This document shows positions 12,626 to 27,102 of a DNA stretch of 36,283 bases, one piece after another. This DNA comes from a virus: the IMG/VR virus record IMGVR_UViG_3300025128_000144, positions 1-36,283 of that record; one strand, written 5' to 3'. The notes under the pieces were generated by a model that saw only the letters and a list, made by a program, of their open reading frames with translations, ran no database searches and had not been told where the DNA came from. Positions within the stretch are counted from its first letter, which is position 1, and every line of letters starts with the position of its first letter. The position numbers and the translations under genes are program-made.

Positions 12626-14122
12626 TCATTCGGTGCGCTTCCCGATGATGTCATCGATTCGTAGTATACTAATAGTGACTTCGCTTGCAGACTGTACTGC
12701 TTGCCTGACGAGTTCTAGTGGTTCCCATACATCGTTATCTGACATAGAGCAACTACCTCCGGTCTCGATGTCTGGGCCTGCATCTACCTTTCCATTCTGA
12801 TGTTCGTTACGGAGAGTCAGTACAGTATCTAGTGGGTCATGACCCGCATTCTCTGCTATGGCTGCAGGTATAGACTCAAGTGCGTCGGCAAAGGCGTCGA
12901 TTGCCATTTGCTCACGGCCACCGGCCTCTGCTGCACGAGAGCGTAGGTGTAGCGCTGCATTAAGGTACGATGCTCCGCCTCCGGGTACAACATTACCGTT
13001 GTTGTAGGCTAGGCAAACTACACCCAGTGCGTCTTCAAATCCACGCTCGGTTTCATCCAGTGTCTGCTTAGTAGCACCTCTTAGGATAAGAGTAGTTACT
13101 TCTCCAGCACCTTCGACAACAATATACTTCATGTCACCTATTGTTTTACACTCTACCTCAGCATCTACTGCTTCATTAAGGTCTTCTGGCGTATGTGCTA
13201 CTGTAGCATTGAGTAGTTTACATAGAGCAGTCAAACTACTCTCAGGTATCCTATGTGCTACAGAAATACCTTGCTTCGTTAATGTAGCAGCAACTACCTC
13301 ATTAACGCTGTCTCTGACAAATACAGTTCCGCCTTCTGGTAAAAGAGAAGCGATTTGCTGTGCTTTTTCGACCCAATCATCTCTACTAGATTGTCTCTTA
13401 TACTGCTGATATTCCGCAGCAGAGCCTAGTGAAAGTTGTACGTTATCGTCACTTTTATCTGCACTCAGGCCTGTATTAATCAACAGTGCTTTCGGTGTAG
13501 GCTTATCTGGCATTGCAGGGAGCATGAACTCTTTATGCAGAACTACTCCACTGAAACAAGATGAATCATCTAGTGCTCCACCGGGTTGACACATGACACG
13601 TATTCGCTCAAATTCACCCTTTGCATTTTCTACTGCTTTGACACATAGTTCACTGACATGTTCCATTGAAGACTCAAGTGCCTTTCCTGTAATCGATGTC
13701 TGTGCTACATGCTGTAGGTGATTTTTAGATGGTGTCTTTAGTGTATCAAGGTGTTCAGTTGCCCACTTACTGGCTTTACGATAACCTCTACAAATGACAT
13801 TTGCGTGCAGACCTTTGTTGAATAATAGTTCACTATTACCTAACAGTTCACCTGCTAACACCACTGTACTTGTCGTTCCGTCATAACATACGCTTTCTTG
13901 CGTATTCGCTGCTTCTACTACCATCTTCGCCGCCGGATGACTGATGTCTAATTCTTGTAGAATTGTTGCCCCATCATTGGTGACGATGACGTTACCGCCA
14001 CCATCTACCATCATCTTATCCATACCCATAGGACCAAGTGTGGTCTTGACGGTATTTACTATTCGCTTCGCTGCTCTGATGTTGTGCACTTGTGCACTCA
14101 TATTGCTTTCATTGTCTTGCAT
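12626..14122 (-). CDS. Group II chaperonin (thermosome subunit)
   Basis: The 498-residue protein has the ATPase signatures of archaeal thermosomes and CCT: NDGATIL at 49-55, DGTT at 81-84, an RGA..QTLDETERG-type stretch at 348-361 and PGGGASY at 380-386. The apical domain keeps the region corresponding to the helical protrusion that closes the cavity (about 216-260). Thermosome subunits usually have about 540-550 residues, so this one is trimmed, mainly at both ends. In the normally invariant GDGTT motif the first glycine is tyrosine (Tyr80). It would fold proteins by ATP-driven cage closure, perhaps virion or replication proteins. Its start overlaps the preceding zinc-protein gene; Met8 is an alternative start. 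Thermosome genes are reported in magroviruses, which supports the assignment. Confidence 0.95.
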   Translation of the reverse strand: MQDNESNMSAQVHNIRAAKRIVNTVKTTLGPMGMDKMMVDGGGNVIVTNDGATILQELDISHPAAKMVVEAANTQESVCYDGTTSTVVLAGELLGNSELLFNKGLHANVICRGYRKASKWATEHLDTLKTPSKNHLQHVAQTSITGKALESSMEHVSELCVKAVENAKGEFERIRVMCQPGGALDDSSCFSGVVLHKEFMLPAMPDKPTPKALLINTGLSADKSDDNVQLSLGSAAEYQQYKRQSSRDDWVEKAQQIASLLPEGGTVFVRDSVNEVVAATLTKQGISVAHRIPESSLTALCKLLNATVAHTPEDLNEAVDAEVECKTIGDMKYIVVEGAGEVTTLILRGATKQTLDETERGFEDALGVVCLAYNNGNVVPGGGASYLNAALHLRSRAAEAGGREQMAIDAFADALESIPAAIAENAGHDPLDTVLTLRNEHQNGKVDAGPDIETGGSCSMSDNDVWEPLELVRQAVQSASEVTISILRIDDIIGKRTE

Positions 14123-18635: not shown

Positions 18636-18890
18636 TCACTCCTCGTACTTCTCTAGTATGTTATTCAATGAATCTATAATTTCCTTGACATCGTAAAGTG
18701 AAGAACTACTCAAAGTAATGAACATAGGACCAACAGGCCCCTCTTCCTCTCCAAATTCAAATAAACTTTTCTGAATAGCCACAGTATAATCAGTGTTCTG
18801 GCCTATATGACCAAAGTTTACATGAACAGGTCTGCCTACTAACCTAGACATCAGTGATTCAATCACAGTAGATAGCATTCCTTTATTCAT
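18636..18890 (-). CDS. Conserved-position hypothetical protein
   Basis: An 84-residue acidic protein (MNKGMLSTVIESLMSR to NNILEKYEE). An amphipathic N-terminal helix, a middle beta-like part (PVHVNFGHIG, MFITLSSSSL) and a C-terminal helix can be seen. There is no zinc motif, membrane segment or known catalytic signature. The ATG has GGTGATAAGAA upstream and overlaps the Cas4-like gene stop (ATGA); its own stop lies in the leader of the primase. Its place between nuclease and primase suggests a replication accessory role, for example a primase partner, but that is only context. Confidence 0.6.
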   Translation of the reverse strand: MNKGMLSTVIESLMSRLVGRPVHVNFGHIGQNTDYTVAIQKSLFEFGEEEGPVGPMFITLSSSSLYDVKEIIDSLNNILEKYEE

Positions 18891-19891
18891 TTCTTATCAC
18901 CTTCGTAGTTATCTTTGTATTCTTGGGGGTCATCACTACCATCCCAACTTGGACAGATGCTCTTGAATGAGCACCATGCGCACTTACCCTGACTAGGCTT
19001 AGTAGGGAAGTTCTCTGTAATATGAGCAATGATTAATGCTTCTTTCATACGATTAATCTTCTTAGAATAAGTAGTCCAGTTCCTACCAGTAGCCGCCTCG
19101 TAAGTTATGTTATCGATAGAGCGTTGGTCATTACCATACTTATTGACAGGGTCTACTGTGACCAGACTACCTGCCGGATACACCCATCCCCAGTGACTAA
19201 CGTCTTGTAAGTCGTGATTCGCAATCTTCAAGAGAAACTTATAGTATGCCATTTCTGTACGCATAGACTGTACTTTGAAAGAAGAGTCTTTCCATTCATC
19301 TTCCATGGGCTTTTTGGTTTGCATCCATTTGCCTGTCTTTAATTCCATGATGGCTACCTTGCCCTCTTCTGTCCTAAATCCTCGGTCAATGGAACCAGCA
19401 TAGTGTATAGGCACTGTCACGGTCTCACCATTGAATTCAATCTCTTCTTCAACGAAAGCGTGTACTTCTTCTTCATTCATAATCGGTAAGTAGTTTTCTT
19501 TACCAGCACCCAGTAACCTTTCCAAATCAGTAGTTAATCTACTACGGACAACTTCCTCTTCACCTAGGTTGTACTCTACATCAGGAAGAACAGATAGTGA
19601 TACTGCTAAATCCAGTGCCTCTTCCTTCTTACCTTCTTGCATTAAGTTGTGTAACTTGTCCAGTTTAGAGACTGCGTTGATGTAATACTCTTCTATAGCA
19701 TTGTGCACATTGATACCCTTTGTCATTGCGTCCGTCTTAGGCTCTGGTAATCTATGTATACGCTTGTATTCATACTGCTTAGGGCAGAAGTCAAAGTCTG
19801 ATGTTAGGCTTGTCTTAGTCATACGGAGCATCTTCTTATGTCCCGGCTTCCACTCGTAAGTGGACTTAGCATATGCTGCAAAGTTTACCAT
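18887..19891 (-). CDS. Cas4/RecB-like PD-(D/E)XK nuclease with Fe-S cysteines
   Basis: A 334-residue protein with the Cas4/AddB-type layout. One cysteine near the N-terminus (FCPKQYEYKR, Cys36) and three near the C-terminus (CAWCSFKSICP, Cys304, 307, 313) would hold a 4Fe-4S cluster. His63, Asp169 (SIDRG), Glu183 and Lys185 (MELKTG) and Gln208 with Tyr216 make up the RecB-family nuclease centre. Such enzymes trim or unwind DNA ends. There is no CRISPR array or cas1/cas2 here, so it is a replication or recombination nuclease rather than part of an adaptive immune system. The ATG at 19891 lies in a TGATG overlap with the MazG-like gene and has GGTGATG upstream; a GTG at 19894 is the alternative. 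Confidence 0.87.
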   Translation of the reverse strand: MVNFAAYAKSTYEWKPGHKKMLRMTKTSLTSDFDFCPKQYEYKRIHRLPEPKTDAMTKGINVHNAIEEYYINAVSKLDKLHNLMQEGKKEEALDLAVSLSVLPDVEYNLGEEEVVRSRLTTDLERLLGAGKENYLPIMNEEEVHAFVEEEIEFNGETVTVPIHYAGSIDRGFRTEEGKVAIMELKTGKWMQTKKPMEDEWKDSSFKVQSMRTEMAYYKFLLKIANHDLQDVSHWGWVYPAGSLVTVDPVNKYGNDQRSIDNITYEAATGRNWTTYSKKINRMKEALIIAHITENFPTKPSQGKCAWCSFKSICPSWDGSDDPQEYKDNYEGDKK

Positions 19892-20154
19892 CACTCATCA
19901 CCTGCACTTAGGTCAAAGAACTCATCCAAGGTAGTCTGACGATTACCAAACATACTTTCTTCGTTCTCTACTCTCTTTGTTATTTCTAACAACCTTTCAA
20001 TATAAACTGCGGCGTCCATTAGTTCTTCTTGTAAATGAACTAACCAATCTGTTTTAGTTAGGTCAGTCCTTTCCATAGTAACGCCGTATTTCTTTTTACC
20101 AACTTCTGCTCTCTTCTTTATTTTATTGCATACTTTATCTTCTAATCTACTCAT
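19891..20154 (-). CDS. MazG-like protein with C-terminal PIP box
   Basis: An 87-residue protein. Residues 11-60 fit the all-alpha MazG-like/dNTP pyrophosphohydrolase pattern of phages (KRAEVGKKKYG, then DWLVHLQEELMDAAVYIERLL), with Glu43, Glu44 and Asp47 as likely magnesium ligands. The usual second acidic cluster is not obvious, so activity is uncertain. Near the end is QTTLDEFF (73-80), an exact match to the PCNA-interacting consensus QxxLxxFF, on a flexible tail after NEESMFGNR. I infer that it can dock on the viral clamp. The ATG at 20154 is preceded by GGTGATAGAG; upstream TTG and GTG codons are in frame. It lies directly after PolB, with 5 bases between the polymerase stop and this start. 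Confidence 0.7.
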   Translation of the reverse strand: MSRLEDKVCNKIKKRAEVGKKKYGVTMERTDLTKTDWLVHLQEELMDAAVYIERLLEITKRVENEESMFGNRQTTLDEFFDLSAGDE

Positions 20155-20159
20155 CTCTA

Positions 20160-22541
20160 TCACCAATATGTTTTGGGCCTTGCTGACCCTGTTGCGAAAT
20201 CAAGGTTCCAATTCAGGGCCTTGAAAATACTCTTGACTTTGGACTTGACTAATTTGTCAACCATCGTCTCGTAATCTAATTCATAATCTTCTAAATCTTC
20301 AGCGCCTCTAAATGCTACTATATCAGCGTCAGGTTGTCCATGTGGGCAGGTACTTACATACACCCAGTTCACGCTATCTCCTTCTTTGAAATAATCTGAC
20401 TTATCTTTAGCAATATACTCATTGTAATACCTAGCACCTTTGACTCCGGGAACCCCGGCATTAGGCGCATAAGAAGAGAGGGCTTTCTGTACTCTTGTCG
20501 TACCTGCTATCTCTTCTATAGAAACTTCTCCTCGTTTGATTCGCTTAGATAACGGCCTAACCATGTCTGTGACTTCTTGCTCACTGGCACCTTTGCATAC
20601 CGCTTGTAATACGTCATTCTCTAAGTTCTTAGAAATGGGAGCAAGCGTGCTGATTTTACCAAAGCGTGCCGACTTGACTTTATCCTTATCTTCAGGAGGC
20701 CAAGAGCATATGCCGTAGTAGAGATTCTTACCCGCTACTAACCAGTAAGGCATGTATGCTTCAAACTCTACAATTAGATGACTCGCTTGATGTTCTCGCT
20801 GAACAGTCTCTGTGAGATGTTTGGCGAGAGCAGGTGCTTCGTCAAATGGCACACTTACGAATGCCGAATCCGTATGTCCGTACAGGGCTTCGTAACCTTG
20901 TTCTCCAGACTCTTCCATTAGGAATTTGATTGCCTCTCTGCCACAAGCAGTGATAGCACTAGCGATGTCGAAATCACACCAGCCCCAATACTCACTCGCT
21001 GCCATACCATACAGTGATGCCATGACACGTTTGGTAGCAAGTTGCATGGTATTCCAACCAGCCCTCTCTATGGAGGTCTCTGCTTTTTTCATCTTGCTCT
21101 TGTATTCATCACGTAATTCAAACATCTCGGTTACTATACGTGGAAGCAATCCCTTTTCGGACTGGTCCCAGCATGTACCATCAGGTAGTTCTCTTACATT
21201 CTCCTCATCTTTACGCTCGCTAGGGACCTGTGTCTCCCATGAAAGATTATGGCTGAGGATTAGGCTGGGATACAGTCCCTTGTAATCAACACAGGCCACA
21301 CCTTCGTATCGACCCGGAGTAGGAGGAGGAATGAATGCACCTTCGTATTCACGCTTCGCCTGCTTTGTTTTAGTAGGCGCTTTCCAGTGCGTCCTTCTAC
21401 CTAACAGGCCTCTTGCAAACCTAGTGACATTATGACATGAAGAAAATTTAACGCCGCATAGGCGCTGTAGTGAAAAGAAGAAGTTGAGGACGTGATTTTC
21501 TTCGTCCACTTTCTTCAATAAGACTGTATCTTGCATACAGTAATCGACGTAATCATCAAATCTTTCAGTCCATCCAGTATATACGTCCATCTCAAACTTA
21601 CCACCGTAACCTAGTGTTTCAGTGATAGTCTGTAGTTTTAAGTTCTTCAACTGAGGCTGACCGCTATCTTTCCATACACGCTCAAACCCACTACCGCTTC
21701 TCAGCGGGGCGGCTGTATCAAAGCATAGTCTACCGATAATAGGTTGCGCTACGTAATCATAGCCTCTTGAACCAGCCTTATTGGGAGGCCTCAATACTCT
21801 CCCTAGAGGACTTAGTTTCCTAAAGTTAGGAAGCCTCTTGACAAGGTGAGGAAGGTCTGCCCACATTATAGCGTGAGCAACGAATACATCAGGATTGCAT
21901 TCTTCAAGGTAGTCGATGAAGGCTTGGTGCATATCTGCTTCCGAACCATATTCGTATCTCTCATAGGTAAAGTCTACAGTTACATCGTTGACTTCGTAGT
22001 CAACAGTGATTACTTCTTGTCCCTTACCCATGTCATAGTAGTTATTCGGATTACCCTTTCTCCAACAGAACGCAACGTGTCGATTGTTGTAGTTATCGAC
22101 AACTGCCATAACTGTAGTCTGACCTGAATTAGGGCACCATTCTAAATCAAAGTGCCATACACGAGGCTTCCACTCAGGCATCTCCTCTACTTCGTCTATC
22201 AGATATCTATCTGCTAGACTGTAGTCCCCTTCCCATGTATCTACGTAATTATGACGTAGTTCTCTACACATCTCTCTGATGTCCGACGAGCGATAGCCAT
22301 ACACCTTGACTAGTTCTTCTCCTGTGCGTAGTGCCTCTGCCTTATCGAACCAATCGATTTCAGAGCCGGGGAACCTATTCAATACTCGTGTAATCTTACG
22401 AACAGGAGTAGATGCCTTGACCCAAAAGTATGGGCGGAAATCGTCAACATACTCTTCAATCAGATTACCTTCTGCATCACGCCACCTCTTGTAGATGTGG
22501 TCAGGCCCCTCAGGGTCTGGTCGAAAGGTATCGATTATCAT
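20160..22541 (-). CDS. polB: Family B DNA polymerase
   Basis: A 793-residue polymerase with a proofreading domain: FDLEW (Exo I, Asp132 and Glu134), the Exo II region AHAIMWADLPHL (Asp229) and YCMQD (Exo III, Tyr334 and Asp338). It then has YEGAFIPPPTPGRY, the polymerase motif A DYKGLYPSLI (Asp419), motif B KRVMASLYG (504-512), motif C YGHTDS (554-559) and a GKNLYYG segment. Motif C is usually YGDTDS; the first aspartate is histidine and the second, the essential metal ligand, is kept. Exo II lacks the usual asparagine. The length suits archaeal viral PolB. It would copy the viral genome with the primase, clamp and loader encoded nearby. GGAGG and an ATGA overlap define the start. Confidence 0.97.
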   Translation of the reverse strand: MIIDTFRPDPEGPDHIYKRWRDAEGNLIEEYVDDFRPYFWVKASTPVRKITRVLNRFPGSEIDWFDKAEALRTGEELVKVYGYRSSDIREMCRELRHNYVDTWEGDYSLADRYLIDEVEEMPEWKPRVWHFDLEWCPNSGQTTVMAVVDNYNNRHVAFCWRKGNPNNYYDMGKGQEVITVDYEVNDVTVDFTYERYEYGSEADMHQAFIDYLEECNPDVFVAHAIMWADLPHLVKRLPNFRKLSPLGRVLRPPNKAGSRGYDYVAQPIIGRLCFDTAAPLRSGSGFERVWKDSGQPQLKNLKLQTITETLGYGGKFEMDVYTGWTERFDDYVDYCMQDTVLLKKVDEENHVLNFFFSLQRLCGVKFSSCHNVTRFARGLLGRRTHWKAPTKTKQAKREYEGAFIPPPTPGRYEGVACVDYKGLYPSLILSHNLSWETQVPSERKDEENVRELPDGTCWDQSEKGLLPRIVTEMFELRDEYKSKMKKAETSIERAGWNTMQLATKRVMASLYGMAASEYWGWCDFDIASAITACGREAIKFLMEESGEQGYEALYGHTDSAFVSVPFDEAPALAKHLTETVQREHQASHLIVEFEAYMPYWLVAGKNLYYGICSWPPEDKDKVKSARFGKISTLAPISKNLENDVLQAVCKGASEQEVTDMVRPLSKRIKRGEVSIEEIAGTTRVQKALSSYAPNAGVPGVKGARYYNEYIAKDKSDYFKEGDSVNWVYVSTCPHGQPDADIVAFRGAEDLEDYELDYETMVDKLVKSKVKSIFKALNWNLDFATGSARPKTYW

Positions 22542-22907: not shown

Positions 22908-23669
22908 TCAGTCCTCCTCGTACTCTTGGTCAATGACAACCATCAGGAAATTAATATCAGGTTGCTCAAGAACCAATACTGTTTCATCACCCGTGTATAA
23001 GTTGAAATCTCCCTTTGGAAGATTAGTAAGTAACTCAGGTAACCAGTTGTCAAATGCCGAGCGAGCAGATACCTCAGGTGCATCTACATTAGTCAAAGCA
23101 GACTTAACGAACATCTTACCCTTTTGTGAATTACCTCCTCGTATGATGAACTCAGAACTACTAGGGTCGAACTCAGTCTTACAAGCGTATTTGCTACCGA
23201 GTACTTTACTAAAACTCGACGCAGGTTTGAGGGCTTCGCCTGATACTACAGCATGATAATTTAGAGATTGGTTAGACCAAGTGCTCCACATATTACCGAC
23301 CGATTGTTCTATCAGTCTTTCAATCAAACTAACTTTATCTTGTGACTGAATGTAACTAGAGGTAGGTAACTGTAGACTAGACTTACCGCATGAAGCATGT
23401 AGAGTACCCGTCTTCCTTACCTGATTGACTTTGACTTCGCTACCCTTAGCAGCGTTGACGAAGGCCTTCAGTTTAGTTAAGTCACTAACATATACGTTAC
23501 CTGACTGTGCGGTTCCACAGTCCATTTCCCGCTTGATATAGTGAGTAGTCTTACCTACTGCGGCAGTGATTTTACCATCACCTACCTTTATCATAATGTC
23601 CGTCAAATCCTTTCCTAAACTAGTCAGGAAGTTCTTGAGGTTTTCAGGACTTATTGTAAATTCTGCCAT
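22908..23669 (-). CDS. pcn: PCNA-like DNA sliding clamp
   Basis: The 253-residue product has the length and strand pattern of archaeal PCNA: FTISPENLKNFLTSLGK at the start, DIMIKVGDGKITAAVG, a middle domain connector, and a C-terminal LVLEQPDINFLMVVIDQEYEED that matches the usual acidic end. The sequence is divergent, so the call also relies on the RFC, RPA-like and PolB neighbours. It would form a ring on DNA and hold PolB and other clients through PIP boxes; a fitting PIP box occurs in the MazG-like protein of the same operon. The ATG at 23669 has AGGTGAT upstream; the in-frame extension to 23765 lies in the structured leader and is rejected. It may have its own promoter. Confidence 0.83.
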   Translation of the reverse strand: MAEFTISPENLKNFLTSLGKDLTDIMIKVGDGKITAAVGKTTHYIKREMDCGTAQSGNVYVSDLTKLKAFVNAAKGSEVKVNQVRKTGTLHASCGKSSLQLPTSSYIQSQDKVSLIERLIEQSVGNMWSTWSNQSLNYHAVVSGEALKPASSFSKVLGSKYACKTEFDPSSSEFIIRGGNSQKGKMFVKSALTNVDAPEVSARSAFDNWLPELLTNLPKGDFNLYTGDETVLVLEQPDINFLMVVIDQEYEED

Positions 23670-23804: not shown

Positions 23805-24851
23805 TCAGAGCACCCCGTCTCTCAGTTCGGACAGACCATACCATTCGGCTGGCTCTCCTTTCTTAGTTACGAAGTATGTTCTCTCTTGACCCTTGAGGTC
23901 AGAGTTAGTCTTCTGTTTGAAGAAGTCTACATGATACCTAGTCTCCCCAGTCAAAGACCCATCGTTGTTACGGGTGGCCTTTGCATGGCACCATAGGATT
24001 TGGAATACATCGTTGGTAGCATTCTTCTCCCATGCGAATTTCCAGCCGTCGAATCCGACCTTCCCTTCTTTGTCCTCTTTGAGGTGAGTTTCCCAAAATA
24101 TGTCAACCCCTAGGCTGTTGAGTTTCTGACAGATAGCAGTCAGTTGCTTGAATCTAGTGGAGCGTATGTTCCAGTTCCATCCAATCTCTTGGTTTAGTTT
24201 AGCAGCAGACGCTTCAATGGCATCCTTTGCATCCATTTCCAAATCATAAATCTTCATGTTATTGATACAGACACTATCGAATTGGTCTACCGCAGTCACC
24301 AGTAGTGTCTTTAGTAGAGGCTTATCAAAACCTTCTTCGTGTTGTCTAGTAGCATACTCTATTGCGAATCTACCGACATCCATAATCTTCTGATAGGTGT
24401 CGATGTAATTGTAAGCAGTCCTGTCTTGCATCTGCATGACCCATGGACTAAAGATACGTATCCTTGGGTCACCGTTGTAATGAGCCTGCTTACAGGCCAT
24501 TGCCCCGTTATCGAAATCAATCGCCCATAGTTGCTCGTCGTTAGTATAGCGATGCATATGTCCGTCCATTACGATACCAGTTTTACCAGTGCCTTCATGA
24601 CCAACTACACCTGCAAAGATGTGAGATGGTTTAATTGAAGATGGCTTCCCTTGAGCAGCCAGTTCCTCAGCAATGTGAGGGAACTTGCTGACAAAGTCAG
24701 TGGAAGATACCTTGGTCTCTACCTTGGTCTCTATTTCGTTTCCGTTACCGTCGAAGTCATCTGCACGGATATCCGGCTCTTCAGGAGGCCTGTCCTTCTC
24801 TTGTGCCTCTTGGGCTTCGTGAGCGTCTGCTATTGCTCCCCAGCCACTCAT
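23805..24851 (-). CDS. RecA-like P-loop ATPase (AAA_24/Sak4-like)
   Basis: A 348-residue protein with an acidic, disordered N-terminus (1-55), Walker A GHEGTGKTG (84-92), an IDFDNG segment (111-116), a Walker B-like LLVTAVDQFDS (183-193) and a sensor-like IFWETHLKED (251-260). The layout matches short RecA/RadA-superfamily ATPases of phages that act with single-strand-binding proteins in recombination. It is encoded directly after the RPA-like gene, with a TGATG overlap, which fits work on single-stranded DNA. The ATG at 24851 has GGAGGTGATGAG upstream; a GTG one codon earlier is possible. A RadB-like or helicase-loader role is the alternative. Confidence 0.72.
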   Translation of the reverse strand: MSGWGAIADAHEAQEAQEKDRPPEEPDIRADDFDGNGNEIETKVETKVSSTDFVSKFPHIAEELAAQGKPSSIKPSHIFAGVVGHEGTGKTGIVMDGHMHRYTNDEQLWAIDFDNGAMACKQAHYNGDPRIRIFSPWVMQMQDRTAYNYIDTYQKIMDVGRFAIEYATRQHEEGFDKPLLKTLLVTAVDQFDSVCINNMKIYDLEMDAKDAIEASAAKLNQEIGWNWNIRSTRFKQLTAICQKLNSLGVDIFWETHLKEDKEGKVGFDGWKFAWEKNATNDVFQILWCHAKATRNNDGSLTGETRYHVDFFKQKTNSDLKGQERTYFVTKKGEPAEWYGLSELRDGVL

Positions 24852-26143
24852 CACTCATCACCTCCGAATTGACTAAGGTTGGTGCTGCCGCCAGTTGCTG
24901 CAGGTCTTGCAGTTCTTGGAGGCACATAGATACCAAGTGCAGTTATGCTAGGCAGTGTGTCGTCCTTGTAAGGGCGCATCTTCAGTCTACCAAAGATGAT
25001 AACTTGAGTGCGCTGCGCATATGGTTTCCATTCACCATCGGTATCTTGGAAATCGAAAGGATGCTGTTCATCAAACATACCGCCGGGAATCCACACAGTT
25101 ACCTCTGAGTGAGGGCTGTCTCTTCCGTTACGAGATTGTAATGATAGACTAGTGATGCTCATTCTGAAAGAGCGTCCTGTCGCATCGTATTCGCTGTTCA
25201 TTGGTTCTTTGTTGAGGCGACTAACATATCCCTTCGTAATGATAGTAGGGTTAAGTGTTATCCCACTAGGTAGTTTTATCTTCTTATCAGCATGTGCTTC
25301 TGAAAGTTCAGCAAGGTCTACTACTGCGTCATGCATTTGGTCATTGACAAGTAGTCTCTGTGGCTGTAATTCACTACGCATGTTTTCAGGTAAGAATGAA
25401 TCAGTATATTCCACAGTTTCGTGGAAGTTACGATTAGTATACAGAGTGTCACGTCCTGCTTGACTAGGAGGTATCGCCTGTATCTTACAAGGTTCATGGA
25501 AGTTATATTGTGCTTCCATAGATTTGTTAGAAAGATTAACTCTCCACAAAGCAATGTCGTTGTTATTTTCTTCCGAACCTAGGAAGTATAGTGTGCGACT
25601 GACACTAGTAGGAGCCATAGGCTTTCCTACCGATGCACTAGCAGCGTTTGTATTCAGGAGACAAAGAATCATGTCACCGTGTTCAAAGGCAAACCAAGGT
25701 AGGTTACTGCCGTCCACTTTCTCTTGTGTCGCTTCACCATTGACATGCCATACTCCTTCTTTAGCAGTAACGACGCCGATTAGTTTCTCTTCGATTGCTC
25801 TGTTAGAGTTATTCTTAAACATATTAATCGCTGTCTCTCTGGCATTAGTTCTGTTGTCTCGTGTAGAATCTTCGATACCTACTAGCATACCGACATAGGT
25901 AGTGGTTTGCCTTCCAGATGACTGCGAGCCACCAAGGTTTCTAGTTTCTATCACGAACATTTCTGACCATTCGATAAGAAGATACTTGTCTTCGGTTAAC
26001 GCATCGTCTACCGAAAACTCTTCTTTTAACCAAGCGTTGAATTCATTCGCTGCTTCGCCTATCTTTTTACCAGTTCTATCCGCATATCCCTTAAGTCGTT
26101 CAAGAACTTCTTCCGGGTATTTTCCATTCGTTTCATCTTCCAT
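24851..26143 (-). CDS. Probable single-stranded DNA-binding protein (RPA-like)
   Basis: The 430-residue protein has an N-terminal helical segment (1-50), a first beta-rich domain (TYVGMLVGIEDSTRDNRTNA, VVTAKEGVWHV) and a second one (RSFRMSITSLSLQSRNG, SEVTVWIPGG, TQVIIFGRLKMRP, ITALGIYVPP) with OB-fold spacing, and a short disordered tail ending QFGGDE. That order and the tail resemble archaeal RPA and other SSB proteins. No zinc finger is seen. It would coat single-stranded DNA for the replisome and the RecA-like ATPase next door. GGAGAGATAA precedes its ATG. The operon context (RFC upstream, RecA-like downstream) is as important as the sequence for this call. Confidence 0.6.
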   Translation of the reverse strand: MEDETNGKYPEEVLERLKGYADRTGKKIGEAANEFNAWLKEEFSVDDALTEDKYLLIEWSEMFVIETRNLGGSQSSGRQTTTYVGMLVGIEDSTRDNRTNARETAINMFKNNSNRAIEEKLIGVVTAKEGVWHVNGEATQEKVDGSNLPWFAFEHGDMILCLLNTNAASASVGKPMAPTSVSRTLYFLGSEENNNDIALWRVNLSNKSMEAQYNFHEPCKIQAIPPSQAGRDTLYTNRNFHETVEYTDSFLPENMRSELQPQRLLVNDQMHDAVVDLAELSEAHADKKIKLPSGITLNPTIITKGYVSRLNKEPMNSEYDATGRSFRMSITSLSLQSRNGRDSPHSEVTVWIPGGMFDEQHPFDFQDTDGEWKPYAQRTQVIIFGRLKMRPYKDDTLPSITALGIYVPPRTARPAATGGSTNLSQFGGDE

Positions 26144-26145
26144 AT

Positions 26146-27078
26146 TTATCTCTCCATATTTTTCTTTAGTTTTGCTACAAAGTACTCAACAAATGCCAAG
26201 TCATCATCAGGCCACTGCGTGGACAGAATGACGAACTCGCCATAAGTGAGCATGAAATTGTGCCAATCATCTTCGCTCTCCATGAGAGGTTTGGCACGTT
26301 GTCTAAGGCCTTTGAGCATGCCTATTCGACTATAACCGCTTTCTAATGAGTTGACCAGAAGGGCGGTAACCTTCGGGAAATCAGAGCCTAAGAGATTCAT
26401 AGCCGCTCTGTTGAGTGCTCTGGTATCTCTCTTTAATCGGTCAATCAAAGCGTCTTCTTTGTTAGGGAGACCCTCTAATGTATCGATGGCGCTTCTCAAA
26501 CTACCATTACATAGTTTGATGAGCGTCTCTACATCAATGCACCATTGTGACGGCCTTCCTTCGTCATGGATAATCTGACATAATCTATCAGCAGCACTGT
26601 CATCAGCGGCGATAGGCTTGAATTCAAAAGTAAGGCACCTGTCTCTAATTGCAGGGTTGATGGGGCTTATGTCATTCGCTGCTAATATGAATATAGTAGT
26701 ACTATGACTATCCTCTATAATCTGCTTAAGTGCTTTCTGAGCAGGGGCTGTGAAACTATCTGCTTCATCTAGGAATATGATACGGCGACTAACACCGAGT
26801 GCCTTTTGTTTACTGATACGCTTAAGTTCCCTAACATAGTCTATGCCTCTATCATCACTAGCATTAGTAATGATGAAGTTCATAGGGTCAAAGAAATCTC
26901 CTAGCATATCTCTAGCAAGAGCATTGGCTGCACTTGTCTTACCTACACCGGGAGGCCCTACAAAGAGTAAATTACTAGGGCAGTTGTCGATAGTCCATTC
27001 AGATGATGCTTCGACAAAATCTTCACATCCTATCAAATCCCCAATTGTATTGGGTCTGTACTTTTCTCTCCAATTCAT
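26146..27078 (-). CDS. rfcS: Replication factor C small subunit (clamp loader)
   Basis: From the ATG at 27078 the protein has 310 residues: WREKYRP at 3-9, Walker A GPPGVGKTS (41-49), Walker B IFLDEAD (101-107), sensor 1 ILAAND (131-136) and the inter-subunit arginine motif RDRC (145-148), where SRC is usual. The C-terminal helical collar follows. Archaeal small subunits have about 320 residues, so this is near full length. It would load the viral PCNA on primed DNA, either as a homo-oligomer or with a host large subunit, since no large subunit is seen here. A GTG at 27090 is also in frame, but the TATA box at 27111-27119 would start the transcript near 27089, favouring the ATG. Confidence 0.95.
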   Translation of the reverse strand: MNWREKYRPNTIGDLIGCEDFVEASSEWTIDNCPSNLLFVGPPGVGKTSAANALARDMLGDFFDPMNFIITNASDDRGIDYVRELKRISKQKALGVSRRIIFLDEADSFTAPAQKALKQIIEDSHSTTIFILAANDISPINPAIRDRCLTFEFKPIAADDSAADRLCQIIHDEGRPSQWCIDVETLIKLCNGSLRSAIDTLEGLPNKEDALIDRLKRDTRALNRAAMNLLGSDFPKVTALLVNSLESGYSRIGMLKGLRQRAKPLMESEDDWHNFMLTYGEFVILSTQWPDDDLAFVEYFVAKLKKNMER

Positions 27079-27102
27079 TTCGACCAGCACCCTGAAATAT
27101 TA

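Follow-up and report, generated by a model that had tools for sequence, protein, structure and literature searches.

DNA polymerase delta has accessory subunits, p12 and p66, that bear PIP boxes. Among archaeal proteins, the canonical box Q-x-x-h-x-x-a-a is common to PolB, RFC-L, FEN1 and RNase HII and to NreA, NucS and TIP. The small, non-core PCNA binders of archaea include TIP, a 64 aa inhibitor from the Thermococcales, and NreA, in which a Cys4 domain is accompanied by a C-terminal PIP box; the peptide KTTQSTLDSFFK has been co-crystallised with the PCNA of A. fulgidus (PMC4929162). The family B polymerases of haloviruses (Hafunaviridae) carry a PIP-like motif on their own C-terminus: those at our loci L303 and L304 end with QTGLAAFC and QTGLGAFV, respectively.

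How does the replication locus of a marine archaeal virus compare with these systems? The window analysed here, 36,283 nucleotides of IMG/VR record IMGVR_UViG_3300025128_000144, belongs, as judged from its sequence, to a magrovirus (Magrovirales) with marine archaeal hosts. It contains the magrovirus arrangement of polB, clamp, RFC-S and primase together with a chaperonin (table 1; gene content and order for comparison in PMC10768690). Between polB and the gene for a RecB-like nuclease lies a minus-strand ORF of 87 codons that starts with ATG; its relatives likewise begin MSRIED or MSKIED. The protein ends ...NRQTTLDEFFDLSAGDE (fuller end ESMFGNRQTTLDEFFDLSAGDE). Its residues 73–80, QTTLDEFF, satisfy the archaeal PIP consensus, so that the exact PIP box of the original prediction is borne out, and they closely resemble the peptide bound by A. 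fulgidus PCNA (PMC4929162). The canonical motif is what the protein has in common with the archaeal PIP-box proteins. Unlike them, it is encoded by a viral gene and its core belongs to an uncharacterised phage family that does not figure among the known partners of PCNA.

Table 1. Features of the window that bear on clamp docking.
Feature	Coordinates	Strand	Basis
Chaperonin	12626-14122		Sequence reading, without profile search
84-aa protein after RecB, internal PIP-like QKSLFEF	18636..18890	-	Motif scan, orthologues
RecB/Cas4-like PD-(D/E)XK nuclease, flanking the slot	18887..19891	-	Annotation search
87-aa protein: EExxD/H two-helix core, linker and PIP tail	19891..20154	-	ORF and relatives
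PIP box Q73-T-T-L-D-E-F-F80	19915..19938	-	Consensus; match to Zn-PIP profile A7
Core, residues 1-60	19975..20154	-	Alignment A1; AlphaFold model, pLDDT 74.9
Family B DNA polymerase, no C-terminal PIP box	20160..22541	-	Annotation and motif scan
Sliding clamp (predicted PCNA fold), presumed docking partner	22908..23669	-	AlphaFold and Foldseek
Clamp loader small subunit (RFC-like)	26146..27090	-	Annotation search

The presumed docking partner is encoded three genes upstream of the 87-aa gene. The clamp gene has no Pfam match of its own, but its product, as the original prediction supposed, is modelled with the fold of PCNA (pLDDT 92.8): the top Foldseek hit is Haloferax PCNA 3ifv (E 2e-12), and the top hits are archaeal PCNAs at about 1e-12. 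The tail may instead bind the PCNA of the host. In the AlphaFold model of the 87-aa protein, the tail forms a loop followed by a short helix (76–83), and the C-terminal end is the block of lowest pLDDT.

What kind of protein carries this tail? Alignment A1 of the core displays conserved R15, G19, K22, Y23, G24, W37, H40, E44, D47 and Y51, of which H40, E44 and D47 are invariant; E43, E44 and D47 lie where they had been placed beforehand. Two helices are predicted, at 3–23 and 34–69, and this hairpin may form a dimeric bundle. Homologues of the core were found at 61 loci in a first viral scan and in 194 phage records, and a second scan yielded 184 relatives; every PHROGs match is of unknown function. 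The core represents a family of small helical proteins that occurs in many phages and has an uncharacterised function.

The original prediction called the protein MazG-like, and the core does resemble MazG and the other all-alpha NTP-PPases (PF03819, PF01503) in being small and helical and in having an acidic EExxD. However, the MazG profile of Pfam matches none of 71 core relatives at E<1 (HMMER), and PF03819 is found in none of 15 magrovirus records while the control is positive in 13 of 14 genomes. An hhalign comparison of the core with an alignment of six phage MazG sequences returned a probability of 1%, and the predicted two-helix hairpin, a model of moderate confidence, has no fold match in the PDB. 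In the phage MazG alignment the metal site has two parts, EExxE on one helix and DxxGD on another; the core has only a single EExxD. Since profile, profile–profile and fold searches are all negative, we reject membership of the core in the MazG or all-alpha NTP-PPase families, although a distant kinship to MazG may exist.

Could the protein nevertheless be a clamp-docked nucleotide pyrophosphohydrolase, cleaning or limiting nucleotides at the fork? The invariant H40, E44 and D47 resemble metal-binding residues, and in phage MW202484 (L262) the gene immediately upstream of a core homologue bears the annotation ntP-ppase. Against these points stand the negative MazG comparisons and the missing second helix motif. 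Acidic motif aside, there is little support for such an enzyme, and we regard it as unlikely. Of the clamp-docked MazG-like protein, then, the PIP tail and a nearby clamp of predicted PCNA fold remain, while the MazG pyrophosphohydrolase finds no support. The other possibility raised at the outset, a clamp adaptor, fits the comparative sequence evidence better. In an incomplete collection of papers we found no report joining MazG with PCNA and a PIP box, and none on a PIP box, an archaeal virus and PCNA together; the magrovirus paper PMC10160649 mentions neither MazG nor PCNA.

How widely is the tail distributed? A survey that took in the 61 core relatives, the polB relatives and those of the second scan confined it to L063 and L124 (with the overlapping loci L139, L140, L153 and L154), the closest relatives of the window. 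Its conservation is a divided result: the motif is kept in the closest lineage, whereas nearly all other homologues have the same core and no Q-L-F-F tail, the pattern that the original prediction had named as speaking against it. None of eight cellular genome loci with a core homologue carries a PIP tail, and a search of the phage records with the tail peptide gave nothing meaningful. Since most core relatives are without it, the tail is not essential to the function of the core. The polB tree unites the window with L063 in one clade (support 100), and the tail has a single origin, in that lineage.

Could the tail, then, have arisen by chance or be a functionless relict? It occurs in two lineages only, and most homologues do without it. 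When the 37 proteins called in the window are shuffled, the expected number of Qxx[LIM]xx[FY][FYW] motifs is 0.33 over their full length and 0.026 within the final 25 residues, where one case is observed; the latter figure is the probability, over the whole proteome, of meeting a C-terminal motif of this kind by chance. L063, however, keeps QTTLDEF, without the second aromatic (QTTLDEFG). Five of the seven aligned motif codons differ between it and the window, all synonymously, with no non-synonymous difference, whereas the linker has diverged and, of the 58 core codons, 14 differ synonymously and 19 non-synonymously. A functionless tail is in our estimate very improbable.

A separate protein with PIP-like motifs occupies the same interval in related viruses. 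In 17 of 80 polB clusters, the polB–RecB interval encodes a Zn-knuckle protein of about 58–80 aa with one or two such motifs (for example MSKWKFWKKV...CCNCGG..RQTTLDEFFDMTPPSQKRLTDY). The profile of this Zn-PIP protein, A7, has a single match in the whole window, and this is the tail (19903-19944, E 0.003). The tail is present in one cluster and in the window, and tail and Zn-PIP protein occur together in none of the 80 clusters; this absence carries little weight, because the tail originated only once. QTTLDEFF itself is encoded in 18 IMG/VR stretches, 11 times on a Zn-knuckle protein and three times on a protein of the after-RecB type, these 14 being magrovirus-type. At the DNA level, the tail might descend from a Zn-PIP gene: its codons resemble those of L281, a similarity of limited weight since the amino acids are identical.

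Does the polymerase carry a clamp-binding motif of its own? That of the window ends ...ARPKTYW. Its internal QKALSSY was rejected as a PIP box because related polymerases share the site, in the form Q-K-[AP/S]-L-x-x-Y, and because it lies inside the polymerase domain; this agrees with the earlier view that the polymerase has no comparably good motif. A C-terminal PIP box is found in none of 65 magrovirus polymerase clusters, most of which end PKxYW or similar, but in nine of 12 outgroup clusters (QTTLEEWW type); the Fisher p is about 1e-9 for clusters that are not independent of one another. The haloviral polymerases are related (about 23% identity), and the viruses of L303 and L304 top the phage-record matches. 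Unlike the magrovirus enzymes, these polymerases have the motif on their own C-terminus and not on small proteins in trans. These sequence comparisons suggest that the clamp contact has shifted from the polymerase to small proteins, although the magrovirus polymerase may touch the clamp via another surface.

The second PIP-like motif of the window, which the original prediction had overlooked, lies in the small protein encoded after RecB; from its sequence, this protein probably has an alpha-beta-beta-alpha fold. Here QKSLFEF occupies residues 40–46 (18753-18773). The motif is present in all 36 orthologues listed as found by blastp similarity and, by a manual count (L002, L088, L213 and L216 corrected by hand), in about 56 of the 65 polB clusters from magroviruses, leaving about nine without a PIP-like motif after RecB; this is the widest-spread PIP-like carrier among the relatives. 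In a 47-row alignment the Q is invariant, L is found in 46 rows and every row has F, Y or W at position 7. Possession of the motif was the criterion by which rows were picked; the alignment therefore tells us how little is conserved apart from the motif, and nothing of motif frequency.

Further PIP-like sequences were seen in the course of this survey. A winged-helix protein of the polB–RecB interval (L113:10425-11015 and L119:10425-10970) carries QTRLDDF or QTRLDEY close to the C-terminus; this PIP-like motif seems to be an independent one. The C-terminus EQRTIGEWLG occurs on a magrovirus protein encoded after the chaperonin gene and RQDILKIWFGEEE, likewise PIP-like, on a Zn protein (loci L128:17607-18119, L091, L115; L106:1198-1743). 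L280, L291 and L294 are viral proteins of no clear family (L294 is weakly HNH-like) that end in QTTLDEFF or nearly so, and HRTV-25 gp43, a 44-aa ORF near polB, ends QTGLGDFV. The product of 24851-26143 in the window, of unassigned family, has the C-terminus T-[SN]-L-[NS]-Q-F-G-G, possibly a degenerate clamp-binding tail; it is common to the window (TNLSQFGGDE), L063 (TSLNQFGGDGQ), L106 and L128. The QEYLDNY at the C-terminus of RecB was not counted: relatives keep it, but the window has QEYKDNY and the second aromatic is missing.

What might the 87-aa protein do? We think it rather probable that it is docked on the clamp and serves the viral replisome as an accessory or adaptor, that its tail arose once, and that the PIP-bearing small proteins provide clamp contacts in trans. 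A flexible linker would connect the phage-type two-helix core to the canonical archaeal PIP box, and through this box the protein would dock onto the virus's own PCNA-like clamp. The tail possibly took the place of the separate Zn-knuckle protein. Since magrovirus polymerases have no C-terminal PIP box, the small proteins encoded beside polB probably supply these contacts, through the after-RecB protein in most viruses and through the Zn-PIP protein or the tail in some. By analogy, p12 and p66 of polymerase delta are accessory proteins of a polymerase that bear PIP boxes.

The tail might also act as a clamp blocker, occupying host or viral PCNA and excluding other PIP proteins. TIP offers a precedent (PMC4929162), and a near-ideal PIP box on a small protein is what such an analogy would call for. 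The gene, however, adjoins the virus's own polymerase and clamp, and the occurrence of PIP-like motifs on several small proteins encoded nearby points to use and not to blockade, so that we judge a blocker quite unlikely.

We return to the clamp adaptor, which, if real, would give a first handle on a core family common to many bacterial and archaeal viruses. More tentatively, as a possibility to which we give rather less than even weight, the magrovirus polymerase may have lost its PIP box, docking having moved to several small neighbours that would join polymerase and clamp in trans: the after-RecB protein, the Zn-knuckle protein, the winged-helix protein or the tail of the phage-type core. 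Were this true, widespread marine archaeal viruses would tie their polymerase to the clamp via small adaptors and not via a polymerase tail, and the docking motif would ride on different proteins in different lineages.
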